A stretch of DNA of 64,000 nt from an uncultured Owenweeksia sp. (GTDB lineage Bacteria > Bacteroidota > Bacteroidia > Flavobacteriales > Schleiferiaceae): contig CAKZRR010000021.1 in NCBI GenBank assembly GCA_937146805.1, forward strand, positions 62,001 through 126,000, in the 5' to 3' direction. Both the position numbers and the translations under genes were made by a program. The number at the start of each line of letters is the position of its first letter. Within the stretch, counting starts at the first letter, position 1. This document shows, piece after piece, positions 52,104 through 60,568 of this stretch. Below the pieces are notes generated by a model. The model ran no database searches and was not told the origin of the DNA. It was given only the letters and a program-made list of their open reading frames with translations.

Positions 52104-53951
52104 CTATTGGTTAATCCAACTTTTTCGCAATTTTAACTGGGCATCACTTACGTTGGACATAGGCACCAATCTATGCGAATCGCTAAAGGTTACCATACGC
52201 GCTTTGGCTTTCAAATCTATTTCTTTAAAACCATCCCCCTTAGGTCTGGCTACGCGTACCACTACTTTATCGCCCACATTAGTGGTATTTACATAATTGG
52301 TAATTACTTCGTTAATGGTCATTAAATCAATCGGCTCGCCATTAAACTCTACAATTTCATCACCCTCTTTCCAGCCTAGTTCTTCCCCAAAAGAATCGTC
52401 TTCGCCTAGGCTTTCAATTCTAATACGACTGGTTTCAAAATTATAACCCAAGGCGGCATCTCCAAAGGATACTTCCTGCGATTCGAAAATAGGATCGTAC
52501 TGAATACCTACTGTTTCAAATAGTTCCTTTAAGGGAAAAGGTTCGGCTCCCTCGTAATGGCGGGCAAAAAATTCGCGCATTTCGGGGTATGTTTTTTCGG
52601 TGATAATATCAAACAAATCAGCATCCACAAAAAAGGTGTCAACTCCATACGATTCGCCCAGCTCGGTTAATAAATCTACCAAACCGTAACTTCCGTTAGA
52701 GAGGTTGAGCAGTTTTAAATCCAAGGCTAATCCTGATAAGGCGCCCTTTTTATAAAAGTTGTGGTATTCATCTTTGTAAAAACTTAAGGTGTATTTACTG
52801 GCTTGCGTTAAAGGCACATTTTGGTTAAAGCCATCATTAGAATGCATGTTTTCGGTAAGCACTTCTAAATACTTACTTAGGGGATAAATGCCGTCTCTAA
52901 TTTGCACCAAGTGCGAGTTGTATTCCGTAATTCCCTCGTACAACCATAAATGCTCCGACATTTCGGGATTAATAAAATCGAAATTCGCAATCATTTGCGA
53001 GTGAATATTCAAAGGGGTTACAATGTGAAAAAACTCATGCGAAGTAATATCACGCACGCCATCGTAAAACTCGTCTCCATCAAACTCGGGCATATACAAC
53101 ACCGTAGAGGTGTGATGCTCTAAAGCACCGTAGCTACTGCCCACCAAATCTAAAGGCACACAGTAAATAAGCACGGCATATTTTTCTACAGGTAGGGTTC
53201 CTCCCAAATGGGTAGAAGCAGCATTTAGCACAGCCGCAATTCGATCCATGCAGTTTTTGGCATTTACCTTTTTGCTTGGGCTGTACACCGAAACCAATAT
53301 TTCGGCACCACCAACATGATGGGTAGCCGTATCCGGCTCGCAATACATTATCGGACTATCGTGCAACTCAAAATAATTACTGGCTGTAAAAAAATCGCTG
53401 GTATCACCAGCTATTACAGGCAAAGCAGTACTGGCGTAAAAACCCTTGGGCTTACTAATTTCTAAGTGAAAAGGTTTGTCTCTTAAGGTATTGATATAAC
53501 CAATTACCCCAAAGTTGTTCAGCACAAAAACATCCGAATCAAAGCCTGTACCTGCTGGTTCAAAAATTCCGGTTGGTCTCGAAAAATCAAAAGTATCATC
53601 TACCTTATAACTTATTTTATAAATCTTTTTGGCGTTGTAAATAGCCCACCTATTGCTGTCTAATCGGCTTACAGCTAAGGCTTCGCCCTTAAAATCTACC
53701 ACTTTAAATTCGCTTACAAAGCGGCCGTAGTCATGTACATCATAAGTGCCGGGTACAATCCGCGGCATATGAAACTCCACCGTATCCTTATCGCCAATTG
53801 GCGGAACAATTTCAACTTGAAGTTGATCGTTTTGGAGCTGATTTAAATTGATGTATACCTGGTAGTTTTCAGGAACTTGATAAGGATCAAAAGAGGCATT
53901 AGCCGAAAGGCTTAACAAGGCCAATAAAACGACAACAAATTTTTGGTGCAT
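52104..53951 (-). CDS. M61 family metallopeptidase with PDZ domain
   Basis: A 615-aa secreted protein (signal MHQKFVVVLLALLSLSANA). The N-terminal M61 beta-domain is followed by a zinc site HEFFHIVTPLNIH (HExxH) and the downstream Glu region LWLYEGITEYNSH. A PDZ domain closes the protein (WKEGDEIVEFNGEPIDLMTINEVITN). M61 enzymes are aminopeptidases with preference for Gly/Ala residues. It lies 11 nt downstream of the FtsX permease gene and may be in its operon, as a periplasmic processing enzyme. Confidence 0.92.
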   Translation of the reverse strand: MHQKFVVVLLALLSLSANASFDPYQVPENYQVYINLNQLQNDQLQVEIVPPIGDKDTVEFHMPRIVPGTYDVHDYGRFVSEFKVVDFKGEALAVSRLDSNRWAIYNAKKIYKISYKVDDTFDFSRPTGIFEPAGTGFDSDVFVLNNFGVIGYINTLRDKPFHLEISKPKGFYASTALPVIAGDTSDFFTASNYFELHDSPIMYCEPDTATHHVGGAEILVSVYSPSKKVNAKNCMDRIAAVLNAASTHLGGTLPVEKYAVLIYCVPLDLVGSSYGALEHHTSTVLYMPEFDGDEFYDGVRDITSHEFFHIVTPLNIHSQMIANFDFINPEMSEHLWLYEGITEYNSHLVQIRDGIYPLSKYLEVLTENMHSNDGFNQNVPLTQASKYTLSFYKDEYHNFYKKGALSGLALDLKLLNLSNGSYGLVDLLTELGESYGVDTFFVDADLFDIITEKTYPEMREFFARHYEGAEPFPLKELFETVGIQYDPIFESQEVSFGDAALGYNFETSRIRIESLGEDDSFGEELGWKEGDEIVEFNGEPIDLMTINEVITNYVNTTNVGDKVVVRVARPKGDGFKEIDLKAKARMVTFSDSHRLVPMSNVSDAQLKLRKSWINQ

Positions 53952-53962
53952 GTGTTTGTTTA

Positions 53963-56374
53963 TTATTCGTACTTAAGGGTATCCACTGGCTTATTACGCG
54001 CCACTTTTAGCGAATGGTAACTAATAATTAAATAAGCCAGTAGCGCGGCAACCAAAGCCGAAAACGCAAAAATTAGCGGATTAAGGGACGCGGAAAACGC
54101 AAAACCCGAAAGCCAAGCTTTAATTAAAAGGTAAGCCAATGGAAGTGCCAAAAGTATGGAAAGGACGATAAGCGTAAACATTTCTTTAAAAATAAGATTC
54201 ACCATTTGAAACACATCCGCTCCTAGTACTTTTCGGATGCCAATTTCGCGGGTGCGCAAACCGGTTGTAAAGGAGGCCAAGCCGGTAAGTCCTAAAAAGG
54301 AAATAAAAATAGCCATGTAGGTAAGGTACAGTATTAACTGGCTTTGGCGTTGTTCTTCTTGATACAAATTGGCGAGTGTTTTGTTTAAAAATGAAAATTG
54401 AAAAGAGTTTTCGGGGTTGTGTTTAGCCCATACTTTCTCGATAGAGACCAATGCCTTTTTTAAATGTTCGCTATCTACTCTAATATGAAAAGTTCCGAGT
54501 TGATTATCTTTTAAAAACAGTACGGTTGGTTTTATAGATTCGTGCAGCGAATGAGCATTAAAATTAGCCACTACACCCACTACTGTTCCGTAAAACATCT
54601 CTTCGCCCGATTCATCAAAACCCCAACGTATGCGCTTGCCTATAGGCTGTTCCCAACCTTGCTCTTCTACCATTTTTTGATTTACCAATACCGCTTTTTC
54701 TTCCGATAGATTGTCTTTTCGTTTGAAGTCTCGGCCCTCCACCACTTCCATCTCCATGGTGGTACAATAGCCCAAACTCACCTGCATATTGTCAATTACT
54801 TTTTGCTCAAAAAGTCCACCTACCTCACTTTCGAGGCTAAATACTGAACGCCCCAAACCCCTTCCTGGCACCGAAAAAGAAGTACTCGAAGCCATTACGT
54901 ATGGTGAATTTGCCAGCTGCTCCTGAATTTTAGGAATTCGTGATGCCGTAACCGAATCTTCTACCGAGACCAATAGAATATCCTCTTTATTAAAACCTAA
55001 ATCCTTGTTGCTTACATAATTCATTTGGCGATACATACCCAAAGCGGTAATCACCACCGCCACCGAAATACAAAACTGAAATCCTACCAAAATCCTGCGC
55101 ATTCGCACACTTCGCTTTCCTAATTGATAACCACCACGTATAGCTGATAAACCTGGAACTTTACTCAAGCTAAAAGCGGGATACCATGCGCTTAAAACAC
55201 TAACCGAACTGGTGAGCAACAATGCTACACCTGCTAAAAGGCCGGTATTAATATGACTCAACGAAAGATCTTTTTGCAATACCTCGTTAAAGGGCGTAAG
55301 CTCTAAAACCAGTTCTACCAGTACAAAGGCCATAAACAACGAAGCAAAACTTAAAAGAAAGGATTCCAAAAAGACCAGCCATCTAATCTCCGCTTTATTT
55401 GCCCCCAATACTTTACGTAAACCCGCTTCCTTTACCCGTTTCATACCTCTGGCAGTGGCCATGTTTACAAAGTTTATCCCTGCCAAAATCAATACAATAA
55501 GACTAATGGCGGCAAAGGCATAGAGATAGGATTTATCACCCCCTTTGCGATCGTATTGCAAGGACCTACCAAAATGAATTTCGCTGAGTTCGCTTAACTG
55601 AATTTGAAAATGGCCACCAAAACTTTCACCCATAGGCCTCATATATTTATCATAAAAACCAGGGAAATCGGCAACAAGTCGATCGGCTTGATCAGAGCTG
55701 GGCAGCTTTAAAAAGGTAAAAACATTTACCTGCCATAAGCTGTTGAGCTGTTCTTGCAAATCCAACGTATCATTAAAAGCACTTAATACGGCATCAAATT
55801 TATGATGCGAATTGGACGGCCAATTGGCAATTAAACCAGTAACGGTATAGGTATGATTGCTTGTGCTAACTTGTTTACCTACTGGGTTTGTCTCTCCAAA
55901 ATAGCGCTGTGCAAAATGCTGGGTAACCACTAAACTTTGCGGTTCTTTTAAACAGGTTTTCCGGTCTCCTTTCAGCATCGGAATTTCAAAAACCTCAAAA
56001 AAGTTGTTATCTGCAATGGCAATATCCTCTTCGTAATGGCTTTTGTTTTTACTCTTAAACCGAACATTTACATCAATATGATACAAACGGGTATAGTCAT
56101 CAATATAATCATACTCTTTAGCTAGCAAAGGCGCCAAGGCCCTACTACTACCAGCAAACTGCTCAATCTCGTTGTTTATTTTAAACTCGCCTTCTACCCT
56201 ATAAATCGTTTCGTGGTTGGGTACATGTTTATCAAAGCCAAACTCGGAATTGAGGTATAAAAATATGATGAGACTAACGCTCAAGCCCAGGGCCAAGCCC
56301 ACTATGTTTAACAGCGAATAGGTTTTGTTTTTAAGCAATGCCCTAAAGGCAAATTTTAGACGGGCTCTAAACAT
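53963..56374 (-). CDS. ABC transporter permease, FtsX/MacB type
   Basis: An 803-aa protein with an N-terminal helix, a MacB-like periplasmic core (about 45-260), a FtsX domain (about 285-400), a second periplasmic core (to about 660) and a second FtsX domain (about 680-800; LRTREIGIRKVLGADVFQMVNLIFKE). This is the duplicated layout common in Bacteroidota. The start overlaps the ATPase gene by 8 nt. Such transporters usually move no substrate through the membrane but transmit force to periplasmic partners; the substrate is unknown. Confidence 0.9.
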   Translation of the reverse strand: MFRARLKFAFRALLKNKTYSLLNIVGLALGLSVSLIIFLYLNSEFGFDKHVPNHETIYRVEGEFKINNEIEQFAGSSRALAPLLAKEYDYIDDYTRLYHIDVNVRFKSKNKSHYEEDIAIADNNFFEVFEIPMLKGDRKTCLKEPQSLVVTQHFAQRYFGETNPVGKQVSTSNHTYTVTGLIANWPSNSHHKFDAVLSAFNDTLDLQEQLNSLWQVNVFTFLKLPSSDQADRLVADFPGFYDKYMRPMGESFGGHFQIQLSELSEIHFGRSLQYDRKGGDKSYLYAFAAISLIVLILAGINFVNMATARGMKRVKEAGLRKVLGANKAEIRWLVFLESFLLSFASLFMAFVLVELVLELTPFNEVLQKDLSLSHINTGLLAGVALLLTSSVSVLSAWYPAFSLSKVPGLSAIRGGYQLGKRSVRMRRILVGFQFCISVAVVITALGMYRQMNYVSNKDLGFNKEDILLVSVEDSVTASRIPKIQEQLANSPYVMASSTSFSVPGRGLGRSVFSLESEVGGLFEQKVIDNMQVSLGYCTTMEMEVVEGRDFKRKDNLSEEKAVLVNQKMVEEQGWEQPIGKRIRWGFDESGEEMFYGTVVGVVANFNAHSLHESIKPTVLFLKDNQLGTFHIRVDSEHLKKALVSIEKVWAKHNPENSFQFSFLNKTLANLYQEEQRQSQLILYLTYMAIFISFLGLTGLASFTTGLRTREIGIRKVLGADVFQMVNLIFKEMFTLIVLSILLALPLAYLLIKAWLSGFAFSASLNPLIFAFSALVAALLAYLIISYHSLKVARNKPVDTLKYE

Positions 56375-57050
56375 GTAAAAACGATTTCTCTGAAACCAAA
56401 TGCCCGTCCATTAACTTTACCAAACGGCTGCTGTAAGCCGCATCGCTAATGCTATGGGTAACCATTATTATGGTGGTACCCGATTCATTTAAGGCCGTTA
56501 ACATTTCCATAATTTCCGATCCCTGCTCCGAATCTAAATTGCCCGTGGGTTCATCTGCCAAAATAAGGCGGGGTTTGGCTACAATAGCTCTTCCAATAGC
56601 CACTTTTTGCTGTTGCCCACCTGAAAGTTGATACGGAAAATGACCACTGCGATGCCCCAATGAAATCCGCTCTAAAATTTCAGTTACTCTTAGCTTTCGC
56701 TCAGATGATTTTACCCCTAAATAGATCAAGGGCAGCTCAATGTTTTCATACACCGTAAGCTCATCCAACAAATTAAAGTTTTGAAAAACAAAACCAATAT
56801 TATCTTTCCGTATTTTCTCCGATTCGCGCTCCGCCAACTCCTTTACCTCCTTGCTATCAAATATATAGAGACCTCTGTTGAAGTTATCTAACAAGCCTAT
56901 AATGTTTAATAAAGTAGTTTTCCCGCAACCCGAAGGGCCCATAATAGATACAAATTCTCCTTCTTCCACCTGCAGGCTAATTTCCTTTAGCGCATGGGTT
57001 TCTACCGTGTCTGATTTGTAGATTTTAGAAAGGTGGTGAAGCTGAATCAT
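56367..57050 (-). CDS. ABC transporter ATP-binding protein (MacB/LolD type)
   Basis: A 227-aa ATPase with all key motifs: Walker [11 protein letters not shown]-loop FQNFNL, signature [14 protein letters not shown], Walker [13 protein letters not shown] and H-loop MVTHS. It pairs with the FtsX permease that overlaps its 3' end. The leader upstream (57051-57346) carries a 16-bp palindrome 14 nt before the start and a larger inverted repeat, suggesting leader-based control. Confidence 0.94.
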
Positions 57051-57063
57051 AGGCTTTATTTAG

Positions 57064-57079
57064 TCCCGCTATAGCGGGA
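57064..57079. repeat. 16-bp perfect palindrome upstream of the ABC ATPase gene
   Basis: TCCCGCTATAGCGGGA is self-complementary and lies 13-14 nt before the ATPase ATG. It could be an operator or an mRNA hairpin that hides the start region. Confidence 0.6.
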
Positions 57080-57104
57080 TTTAATGAAGGAGATGGGTAA
57101 AGTA

Positions 57105-57175
57105 AAACCCTCGACCAATTTAACGTTTAACACAAATTTTACCAATTGGAAAATAAGATAGGAGGTCGAGGGTTT
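57105..57175. repeat. 71-bp element with 12-bp perfect inverted repeats
   Basis: Arms AAACCCTCGACC and GGTCGAGGGTTT enclose 47 bp that itself carries ACCAATT twice. It lies in the predicted leader of the ABC operon. It may be a structured leader RNA or a miniature mobile element; copies elsewhere were not examined. Confidence 0.5.
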
Positions 57176-57346
57176 AAACTGCTATGAAGAGCTATTTTAA
57201 ATATTATAAAAAATTTCGGAAAAGGTGTTGGAGGACAACCGATTAACCCTAAAATTCTGCTACTTGAACTTGAAATTAAACAACCAATTTTTTTCCAACG
57301 ATAAAAGAACTTCGCTAATTCACAGCTTATCCGAAATTTTTATGCT

Positions 57347-57703
57347 TTAGTATTGTACGTATCGCAACTGCAAATAGTGCTTTACATGATGCAATTTCGG
57401 GTCTACCGAAAGGTTTTCGTTGCGCATCATCCAGGCTATGTATTGGGCAATTTCTTCATCCTGCCCTTCTACACTCTCCACAATTACATTTCCGTTTCCA
57501 TCAATCCAAAATACCACCTCAACAAATTGTTGCACCTGGTTGTTGTTTTTTTGGAGCGGCACGTTCCAATGAGAATACAGCTGAAATTGAGGTGTATCAC
57601 AACTTGTTTCGCCACTGGGGGTGTTGCCCTTAGCCAAGGCTAAGTTGCTAAACACCAGTACCAGCAGGAAAAACAAAGCAGATATCACTTTCATGAATCT
57701 CAT
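57347..57703 (-). CDS. small secreted protein, TonB-C-like
   Basis: A 118-aa protein with a signal peptide (VISALFFLLVLVFSNLALA) and a mature part that resembles the C-terminal domain of TonB-like energy transducers (VEVVFWIDGNGNVIVESVEGQDEEIAQYIAWMM). No TonB transmembrane/proline linker is present, so it is a free periplasmic domain. A -24/-12-like promoter (57735-57751) lies upstream. It is divergent from the NtrC-type regulator and may be one of its targets. Confidence 0.65.
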   Translation of the reverse strand: MRFMKVISALFFLLVLVFSNLALAKGNTPSGETSCDTPQFQLYSHWNVPLQKNNNQVQQFVEVVFWIDGNGNVIVESVEGQDEEIAQYIAWMMRNENLSVDPKLHHVKHYLQLRYVQY

Positions 57704-57734
57704 TTTTACGTTTTAGTTTTCGTACCATACCCTT

Positions 57735-57751
57735 AGCGAAGCACATGCCTA
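57735..57751 (-). promoter_or_regulatory. sigma-54-like (-24/-12) promoter
   Basis: On the minus strand TAGGCATGTGCTTCGCT has GG-N10-GC spacing and matches most of TGGCACG-N4-TTGCW. GG is at 57749-57748 and GC at 57737-57736. Transcription would begin near 57725, about 20 nt before the start of the TonB-C-like gene. Confidence 0.5.
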
Positions 57752-57803
57752 AATGCTAAGTGCTTATTAATAAGTAGCTTATATTTTTACGAAAACAATT
57801 TAG

Positions 57804-57819
57804 TGTTCGATATTGAACA
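57804..57819. promoter_or_regulatory. operator palindrome, site 1 (TGTTCGATATTGAACA)
   Basis: A 16-bp near-palindrome sharing 13 of 16 bases with site 2, whose centre is exactly 22 bp away. About 80 nt upstream of the predicted sigma-54 start site, a usual distance for NtrC-type enhancers. Confidence 0.6.
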
Positions 57820-57825
57820 GTATCT

Positions 57826-57841
57826 TGTACGAAATCGAACA
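57826..57841. promoter_or_regulatory. operator palindrome, site 2 (TGTACGAAATCGAACA)
   Basis: Second copy, ending 7 nt before the -7 core of the regulator gene and covering its -33 area. Binding here could repress the regulator while site 1 and 2 activate the divergent gene. Confidence 0.6.
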
Positions 57842-57848
57842 GCCCTTA

Positions 57849-57856
57849 TACTTTTG
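57849..57856 (+). promoter_or_regulatory. promoter core TACTTTTG for the NtrC-type regulator gene
   Basis: Exact TAnnTTTG 5 nt before the GTG start at 57862; a TTG at 57825-57827, 21 nt upstream, fits the -33 position. Confidence 0.6.
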
Positions 57857-57861
57857 GCACC

Positions 57862-59223
57862 GTGGAAAAGAGTTACAGCTTACTAATTGTAGATGATGAT
57901 GACGATGTGCTTACCAGCGCACGGCTACTTTTAAAGCAACATTATAAAAAGGTAGAAACAACCAATAACCCGCAAGAAATTAACGGAATGCTAACCAAGT
58001 TGCAACCCGATTTAATTTTGCTGGATATGAATTTTAGGCGCGGGTTAAACGATGGCCGAGAAGGAATTTATTGGCTGGAGCACATTAAAGAAGTAAGCCC
58101 CGAAACGCAGGTAATACTAATGACGGCTTACGGAGAAGTAGAAACTGCCGTACAATCCATAAAAAAGGGAGCCTTTGATTTTATCCTAAAACCTTGGACC
58201 AACGAAAAACTTTTGAGCAACATAGCCTCCGCTTTAAAATATGCACGGGAGCTTAAAAAGGTAGAACAGCTGGAGCAAACCAAAATTACGCTGGAAGAAA
58301 ATATTGGTTTAAAGCATGAGGACTTCGTAAGCAGATCGCCCTCTATGACCAGCCTTATGAAAACCATAGATAAAGTAGCGGCCACCGATGCCAATATTTT
58401 ACTATTAGGCGAAAATGGAACTGGGAAAAGCGTGCTGGCCATGGCCATTCATCGTGCTTCTTTGCGGCATAAAAACCCTTTTATTACAGTAGATTTAGGG
58501 GCGGTAAGCCACTCCCTTTTTGAAAGCGAATTGTTTGGACATGCCAAAGGCGCCTTTACTGATGCCCATAATGACAAGGCTGGCCGCTTTGAAACAGCCG
58601 AAGGCGGCAGCCTATTTTTAGATGAAATAGGGAACCTTAGCCCCGAGCTGCAATCGAAGTTGCTTACCGTAATTCAAAATAGACACGTTACCCGTTTGGG
58701 AGAAAACAGGCAACGACAAATAGATGTACGCTTGGTTTGTGCTACCAATATGCCTATTCACCAAATGGTACATGAAAACAAATTTAGACAAGATTTACTC
58801 TATCGTATTAATACTGTGGAATTGGTAATACCTCCGTTACGCCATCGCAAGGAAGATATTCCTGTATTAAGTCAACGCTTTTTAGAGAGCTTTGCGCGTA
58901 AGTACCAAAAAGGAGCTTTACAATTTAGCGCGCGTGCTATGGATCAATTGTGCCATTATGCTTGGCCCGGAAACATTAGAGAGCTGGAGCATTGTGTAGA
59001 ACGTGCCGTTATTTTATCGGATAGCCAGCAAATTGATAATTTGGGTTTGCACGGACAAAATCATCCGCAATTAGAGCCCGATGGTTACAATTTAGAGGAA
59101 ATGGAGAAACACCTTATTTGCAAAGCCTTGGAAAAATACGAGAGCAATATTTCACGAGCCGCTAAAGAGCTAGGTATTACTCGTGCGGCCTTATACAGAC
59201 GAATGGAAAAGCATGGCCTCTAA
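57862..59223 (+). CDS. NtrC-family sigma-54-dependent response regulator
   Basis: A 453-aa regulator starting at GTG. The receiver domain (about 1-125) has the acidic pair DDDDDV, phospho-Asp in LILLDMNF, MTAYGE and the Lys in ILKPW. The AAA+ domain (about 150-380) has Walker A GENGTGKS, the sigma-54 contact loop GAFTDA (variant of GAFTGA), Walker B GGSLFLDEIG and the Arg-finger region LLYRIN. A Fis-type HTH closes it (NISRAAKELGITRAALYRRMEKHGL). It overlaps the kinase gene and probably drives the nearby sigma-54-like promoter. Confidence 0.95.
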   Translation: MEKSYSLLIVDDDDDVLTSARLLLKQHYKKVETTNNPQEINGMLTKLQPDLILLDMNFRRGLNDGREGIYWLEHIKEVSPETQVILMTAYGEVETAVQSIKKGAFDFILKPWTNEKLLSNIASALKYARELKKVEQLEQTKITLEENIGLKHEDFVSRSPSMTSLMKTIDKVAATDANILLLGENGTGKSVLAMAIHRASLRHKNPFITVDLGAVSHSLFESELFGHAKGAFTDAHNDKAGRFETAEGGSLFLDEIGNLSPELQSKLLTVIQNRHVTRLGENRQRQIDVRLVCATNMPIHQMVHENKFRQDLLYRINTVELVIPPLRHRKEDIPVLSQRFLESFARKYQKGALQFSARAMDQLCHYAWPGNIRELEHCVERAVILSDSQQIDNLGLHGQNHPQLEPDGYNLEEMEKHLICKALEKYESNISRAAKELGITRAALYRRMEKHGL

Positions 59224-60568
59224 AAAATTCTCCTTCCGTATTGGCCTTAGAGTAGGGCTGCTGGTAAGCACTATTTTTTTGTTTGCCTGGTTTTGGTACA
59301 ATTACCAATTACTATTTATACATGTGTTTTTGGCGCTGGTAATTGCTGGGCAAACAGCCGAATTAATTTATTATACCAATCGGGTAAACCGAGAACTGCG
59401 CAAGTTTTTAGAAGCCATTCGCTATGGCGATTACTCGGTGAGTTTTGGGGGCCACTTAGGTGGAAGCTTTAAGGAACTAAGCGAAAACTTTAGTGCCGTA
59501 ATAGAGCTGGTAAAAAACTCGAAAGCCGAAAGAGAAAGCCATGCAGAACTATTAAAACTTACCATCGAAAACTTACGATTGGGTGTTATACTGGTAGATA
59601 CACACGGTACCTTAATGCAAGTAAACCCGGCTGCCCGAGATTTGTTAGACATTCCTCATTTTCATACTTGGAATATGTTGGGTAAAAAGAAACCCAGCTT
59701 TGTAAAGCAAATAGGTGATTTAAAAAGCGAAGGCAGGCGTTTGCTCGAAATAAATACCAGCACCGGTTTGCGCGAGTTTTATTTAGATGTAACCTCCATT
59801 TCTTTATTGGGTTCGCAATACCAACTCATCTCCTTTTCTGATTTAAAAAATGAAATAGAAAAAAAAGAAATTGACGCTTGGCATCGGCTAATCCGTATTT
59901 TAGCGCACGAAGTGATGAACTCCGTAACACCCGTTACCTCTTTATCTGAAACCATTAAAAATATTTTGACGGATGAAAAAGGGAACGCCTTAGCAGGAGA
60001 AGAACTGGACCCCGAAAAAATAGGAGACATTATTTTGGCCCTCAATACCATTATTAAACGCAGCCACGGTATGCTCAATTTTGTAGATGAGTACCGCAAA
60101 CTTACGCAGCTACCTGCCCCTAGGCTTAGTCCGCTAAATGTAAACGAACTAATGAGCCATGCTTGTAAACTTATGGAAGCCGAAGCAGCCACTTTTAGCA
60201 TAGAGCTGAGTTCTAAAGCTGCTCCTAAAAACTTAGCCATTAATGCCGATCAAAAAATGATTGAGCAAGTACTTATCAATCTTATAGGTAATGCTATTCA
60301 CGCTTTAGCGGAAAAGGAAAATGGACAAATACATTTATCCACCAGCCTAAACGATCACGAAATTGTATTGCATATAACCGATAATGGACACGGTATAAGC
60401 AAGGATATTTTGCCTTCTATTTTTATCCCCTTCTTTTCTACCCGCAAAAATGGAAGCGGCATTGGCCTCACACTTTCTAAAAACATAATGCAATTGCATA
60501 AGGGCAACATTACCGTACAAAGTGCAGAAGGAGAAGGAACTGAATTTAGATTGAGTTTTGGGATTTAA
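59213..60568 (+). CDS. sensor histidine kinase with two membrane helices
   Basis: About 451 aa. Two N-terminal hydrophobic helices (about 10-55), a PAS-like domain (about 125-200, TLMQVNPAARDLLDIPHFHTW), a HisKA-like phosphoacceptor segment (RLIRILAHEVMNSVTPVTSLSE, with the His in LAHEV) and a HATPase_c domain (N box INLIGNAIHAL, G boxes DNGHGIS and GSGIGL). The ATG at 59213 is preferred over the ORF-track GTG at 59183; it overlaps the regulator stop by 11 nt. It should phosphorylate the NtrC-type regulator; ligand unknown. Confidence 0.92.
   Translation: MASKKFSFRIGLRVGLLVSTIFLFAWFWYNYQLLFIHVFLALVIAGQTAELIYYTNRVNRELRKFLEAIRYGDYSVSFGGHLGGSFKELSENFSAVIELVKNSKAERESHAELLKLTIENLRLGVILVDTHGTLMQVNPAARDLLDIPHFHTWNMLGKKKPSFVKQIGDLKSEGRRLLEINTSTGLREFYLDVTSISLLGSQYQLISFSDLKNEIEKKEIDAWHRLIRILAHEVMNSVTPVTSLSETIKNILTDEKGNALAGEELDPEKIGDIILALNTIIKRSHGMLNFVDEYRKLTQLPAPRLSPLNVNELMSHACKLMEAEAATFSIELSSKAAPKNLAINADQKMIEQVLINLIGNAIHALAEKENGQIHLSTSLNDHEIVLHITDNGHGISKDILPSIFIPFFSTRKNGSGIGLTLSKNIMQLHKGNITVQSAEGEGTEFRLSFGI

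Follow-up and report, generated by a model that had tools for sequence, protein, structure and literature searches.

A conserved tandem dyad as the putative enhancer and operator of an NtrC-type regulator facing an FtsX-type ABC transporter operon in Bacteroidota

Introduction

Tandem palindromes in the space between two divergent genes raise the question of which protein reads them and which genes they serve. This arrangement is found in a 64,000-nucleotide stretch of DNA from an uncultured Owenweeksia species, analysed here as a whole and called the window, where an NtrC-type response regulator gene points away from a gene for a small secreted protein. In Bacteroidota, NtrC-type regulators are repeatedly linked to FtsX/MacB-type transporters, and we found no description of their targets or sites. 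A sequence-only reading of the window had proposed that the regulator represses itself and activates the small divergent gene from a sigma-54 promoter. According to our analysis, which was computational throughout, it is highly probable that the phosphorylated regulator activates a transporter operon via sigma-54 from the tandem dyads and represses its own gene.

Results

The two dyads occupy positions 57804-57819 (dyad 1, TGTTCGATATTGAACA) and 57826-57841 (dyad 2, TGTACGAAATCGAACA), neither being assigned to a strand. They are identical at 13 of 16 bases and lie 22 bp apart from start to start, just as the earlier reading had it, and dyad 2, being self-complementary at 12 of its 16 positions as compared to 14 of 16 for dyad 1, is the weaker palindrome. 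We propose that dyad 1 is one half of an enhancer bound by the regulator and that dyad 2 is the second binding site, overlapping the regulator's own core promoter. When the genome search suggested by that reading was carried out, the two dyads proved to be the sole sites with up to two mismatches to TGTTCGATATCGAACA in the 3.16-Mb genome. The degenerate tandem pattern TGTNC-N6-GNACA, N6, TGTNC-N6-GNACA had one exact match in the genome, as compared to none for the reversed pattern used as control, and the only other tandem match at up to two mismatches adjoins a 50%-identical paralogous regulator on contig C15. No Rfam family was found in 56900-58000. A regulon search with single dyads carrying three mismatches was dropped, the counts being background (9 observed, 26 in the control). 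Of note, the same genome harbors a second, paralogous module of regulator, kinase, HlyD and ABC genes (G000:C15:20613-21959, L066), which has its own slightly degenerate dyad pair.

Judged against shuffled and reversed controls, the tandem arrangement is conserved in relatives far beyond chance. Of 80 named relatives spread over the phylum, 72 have tandem TGTNC-N6-GNACA dyads upstream of the orthologous NtrC-type regulator, at a spacing of 22 bp in 44 of them and of 21 bp in 28 (mostly Pedobacter); 70 of 73 dyad pairs are distinct sequences, and because relatives share ancestry, these counts are not independent. In same-family orthologs, the pair again has a spacing of 22 bp and, for the most part, lies nearly as far from the start codon as in the window. 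From 1600 first-order Markov shuffles of the upstream regions, the best dyad score obtained was 14/16; for 18 other NtrC-type genes, the maximum was 12/16. Within an order-level sample of 248 genomes, the tandem pattern was present in 28 and the reversed control in none. Of the 28 loci fetched from this search, 26 adjoin regulator and transporter genes. One exception, L095, is an apparent extra target away from these genes and is found in a sister genome (G126) too; the other, L070 (G108), is a tandem match with one mismatch that has none of the module's genes nearby and was set aside as a likely chance hit. Taken together, the comparison supports the elements of the circuit read from the window, but the circuit, rather than being a local one, is an architecture conserved in many Bacteroidota. 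A record titled Beijerinckiaceae bacterium (L122) carries a Bacteroidota-type module at 56% identity, probably owing to a binning or naming error.

The pair was present in 9 of 9 sampled genomes having an ortholog with 50% identity or more and in 0 of 25 without ortholog (p ~2e-8, by a statistic that ignores phylogeny). This bears on the idea that some other, unlinked transcription factor acts at the dyads while the NtrC-type regulator acts elsewhere, which might be entertained because the form of a palindrome alone does not identify its protein. The strict co-occurrence with the regulator ortholog renders such a factor very unlikely, as do the distribution of the dyads, with most taxa having one pair per genome, nearly always by the regulator or before FtsX genes, and, as in an enhancer, their constant distance from -24/-12 promoters, which require an NtrC-type activator. 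With respect to LexA as a candidate, the LexA box of Gram-positives is CGAAC-N4-GTTCG, whereas the dyads have the reverse orientation, GTTCG-N4-CGAAC.

The adjacent regulator, which we favor as the protein acting at the dyads, is encoded at 57862-59223 on the plus strand and has the constituents of an NtrC-type protein, namely a receiver, an AAA+ sigma-54 interaction domain with a GAFTDA loop and a Fis-type HTH. Comparing nine orthologs, F-T-D-A is invariant and GAFTDA nearly so, with GSFTDA in two. GAFTDA is listed among the GAFTGA variants expected to keep activity (PMC4641369) and occurs in a functional activator, DVU2106 of D. vulgaris (PMC4641369, PMC3897727). The sensor histidine kinase is encoded at 59213-60568 on the plus strand, its start being taken at the ATG at 59213 (the open reading frame list gives GTG 59183). 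Two closely spaced N-terminal transmembrane segments with a very short loop can be read from its sequence, and hydropathy, a rough method, indicates that most relatives' kinases likewise have two close segments and no space for a sensor domain. Another NtrC-type regulator, 38% identical, is located about 500 bases beyond the window end (G000:C21:126513-127730).

The minus-strand GG-N10-GC element that had been noticed downstream of the dyads is present at 57749-57736 (GGCATGTGCTTCGC), with a predicted start at about 57724, relative to which the dyad centres lie at about -87.5 and -109.5. By itself this motif is uninformative, since both strands of the window contain 305 matches, and it is the conserved position that is informative. 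The window's own copy, AGGCATG-N4-TCGC, is a modest match, and in a same-genus relative (L054/L098) the -12 element reads GT instead of GC. Using frequencies that are our own approximation, the median best sigma-54 score was 10.4 on the divergent strand, falling to 3.5 for the opposite one and to 2.5 for shuffled sequences. The offset from dyad 1 to the -24/-12 element, followed over 73 loci, was 52/53 bp in 14, 62-65 bp in 56, 86 bp in two and 77 bp in one; 52-53 bp is the register of the window's clade, probably reflecting a single evolutionary event at 53 bp, and 62-65 bp that of most other groups. A single rpoN gene is encoded in the genome. The conserved position in relatives thus lends support to a -24/-12 promoter serving the divergent gene, as put forward in the earlier reading.

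A separate test of the spacing used dyad pairs in other families that were found by pattern alone. TGGCA was present at 24 of 25 such pairs, the best one lying at 42, 52-54 or 62-64 bp and none between. Among 20,000 sets drawn at random from 38-69 bp, none matched the 10.5-bp periodicity of these offsets, although the independent cases are fewer than counted because some loci come from related species. By this measure, the offsets of about 42, 53 and 63 bp are steps of one helical turn. Many of the pattern-found pairs precede stand-alone FtsX genes that have no visible regulator gene alongside. Family f62 (L194-L201, L204-L215) has several dyad pairs per genome, each before separate FtsX permease genes, which suggests an expanded regulon. 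One could also argue that the dyads serve autorepression of the regulator only, with the divergent operon using another promoter and the -24/-12 match being incidental, given that GG-N10-GC is common, that the copy in the window is modest and that dyad 2 overlaps the regulator promoter. Considering that the distance of the -24/-12 element is constant at nearly all of the 73 loci, and is also fixed at the pairs before stand-alone FtsX genes, we judge this arrangement to be exceedingly improbable.

Our preferred reading, in which the dyads serve a sigma-54 operon, leads to the genes behind the promoter. First in the predicted operon is the small gene (57347-57703, minus strand), encoding a 118-residue secreted protein; it is followed on the same strand by genes for an ABC transporter ATPase (56367-57050), an FtsX/MacB-type permease (53963-56374) and an M61-family peptidase (52104-53951), the latter often closing the operon in the window's clade. 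Nearly all relatives share one gene order, in which the FtsX and ATPase genes, with or without an HlyD or small gene, point away to one side of the dyads and the regulator and kinase genes to the other. The transporter side of relatives comprises one or more FtsX permeases, the ATPase and usually an HlyD adaptor. In the window's clade, there is no HlyD gene, and the first gene encodes the small secreted protein or nothing recognisable; several close relatives of the window are without the small gene, and more distant ones have the HlyD adaptor in its place. Because the small gene is lineage-specific whereas the transporter genes are near-constant, the conserved target is, as gene order indicates, the FtsX-type ABC operon (ATPase, FtsX permease, often M61 peptidase) and not chiefly the small gene. 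Accordingly, the earlier proposal of a divergent gene behind a -24/-12 promoter is supported, but not the small gene as the conserved target.

The small protein had no Pfam match. Its structural model has a mean pLDDT of 66.7, rising to about 90 in the domain, where predicted strands and a helix follow a beta-beta-alpha-beta order; the best PDB matches, to TonB, FusB and TolA domains, are weak (E at least 0.36), so that the likeness to a TonB C-terminal domain fold is weak as well. Between the small gene and the ATPase gene lies a gap of 296 bp with a strong RNA fold (z -3.4), which makes their co-transcription, although we infer it, not certain. An inverted repeat (AAACCCTCGACC ... GGTCGAGGGTTT) at 57114-57180 within this gap is possibly an attenuator or processing site.

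On the other side of the dyads, the TTG of the regulator's -33 element (57825-57827, plus strand) overlaps the first bases of dyad 2, and a -7 box of the TAnnTTTG type, TACTTTTG, is located at 57849-57856 on the same strand, the predicted +1 being 57861 according to published promoter numbering (PMC6847099). As this position is one base before the GTG, the regulator mRNA should be leaderless, a property of only 5.5% of the mRNAs examined in F. psychrophilum (PMC9723704). A sigma-70 scan returned chance-level matches only, as expected for the phylum. A TAnnT(T/A)T(G/C) box 6-8 bp past dyad 2 was found at 44 of 73 loci, as compared to 1.6% in shuffles. Since dyad 2 is framed by the TTG and TACTTTTG, a protein sitting on it should block the regulator promoter. 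Overlap and conserved box thus back the earlier suggestion that dyad 2 covers the -33 area, and the comparative evidence also argues for self-repression of the regulator. Self-repression may not be universal, as Pontibacter and some others lack the -7 box after dyad 2. Positive autoregulation is common among two-component systems, which would fit a regulator that activates in both directions and stimulates its own gene instead of repressing it. This is rather unlikely for a site that covers the -33 element and spacer of a sigma-A-type promoter and lies just 6-8 bp from the -7 box; moreover, with the start codon no more than about 20 bp away in the window's clade, a -24/-12 element could not be accommodated on that side.

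Discussion

From the sites, their spacing, the gene order and the patterns of conservation and co-occurrence, we infer that the tandem dyads are the private enhancer and operator of the adjacent NtrC-type response regulator. Upon its signal, the kinase would phosphorylate the regulator. Once assembled on the two dyads, which are centred about 88 and 110 bp ahead of the divergent start, the regulator would employ its ATPase with the GAFTDA loop to drive sigma-54 polymerase into the open state at the -24/-12 promoter. Expression of the small secreted protein should thereby be turned on, together with that of the FtsX-type ABC transporter and the M61 peptidase encoded behind it. At the same time, the bound regulator would cover the -33 element and spacer of its own sigma-A-type promoter and thereby limit its own synthesis. 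We propose that the enhancer-promoter distance evolves only by steps of about one turn because a fixed helix face must be kept. The spacing rule (about 42, 53 and 63 bp) amounts to a natural experiment, replicated across many promoters, on the constraint that DNA phase places on activation through sigma-54.

Several known systems resemble parts of this module. BceR of the Firmicutes is an OmpR-type regulator using ordinary promoters, whereas the window system combines an NtrC-type regulator with sigma-54 and shows its transporter-kinase tie as gene linkage only; because its regulator is not of the OmpR type, we compare the module with Bce systems and do not class it as one. What BceRS-BceAB has in common with it is an FtsX-type ABC transporter alongside a kinase without an extracellular sensing domain, and intramembrane-sensing kinases work with FtsX-type transporters in Firmicutes (PMC7828314). 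By analogy, many Bacteroidota might possess an FtsX-transporter stress module in which the transporter informs a sensorless kinase, as in Bce, and the output is a helically locked sigma-54 enhancer, whose code has spread to many FtsX genes in some families to form a transporter regulon; we put this forward as a tentative possibility. MacAB-type tripartite efflux pumps likewise have a MacB-like permease, an ATPase and, as in the relatives, an HlyD/MacA-like adaptor, whereas the operon in the window's clade is without an HlyD gene and has ATPase and permease as separate genes.

The circuit logic is already known from D. vulgaris, where DVU2106 activates sigma-54 operons and has its own binding site overlapping its own sigma-70 promoter, constituting a negative loop (PMC3897727, PMC4641369). 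The divergent DVU2106/orp operons are thus alike in having a GAFTDA activator, palindromic sites, sigma-54 activation and a site overlapping the activator's own promoter, but DVU2106 is a single-component cell-division regulator with IHF-aided activation, no kinase and no ABC transporter. That FtsX permeases of Bacteroidia are under sigma-54 control has also been inferred, in a 2025 PSSM scan that, in the part available to us, predicts sigma-54 promoters before COG0577 FtsX-like permeases; that part of the survey names no activator, enhancer or spacing rule for the permeases (PMC12316311). The enhancer sequence, its regulator, the helical spacing and the broad conservation across the phylum appear to be undescribed in the literature searched, in which we found no report of the dyad sites or the regulator, a weak negative since subscription papers were mostly outside its coverage.

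The dyad offers a recognition code from which the targets of the regulator could be read off in any genome. Away from the regulator module, two genomes of the Phaeocystidibacter luteus genus carry a second dyad pair (L178, 6815-6852; L179, 6538-6575), which possibly marks an extra target. It is flanked by the gene for a multi-span membrane protein on one side and by that for a small secreted protein on the other, the tail of which looks like a T9SS sorting signal.
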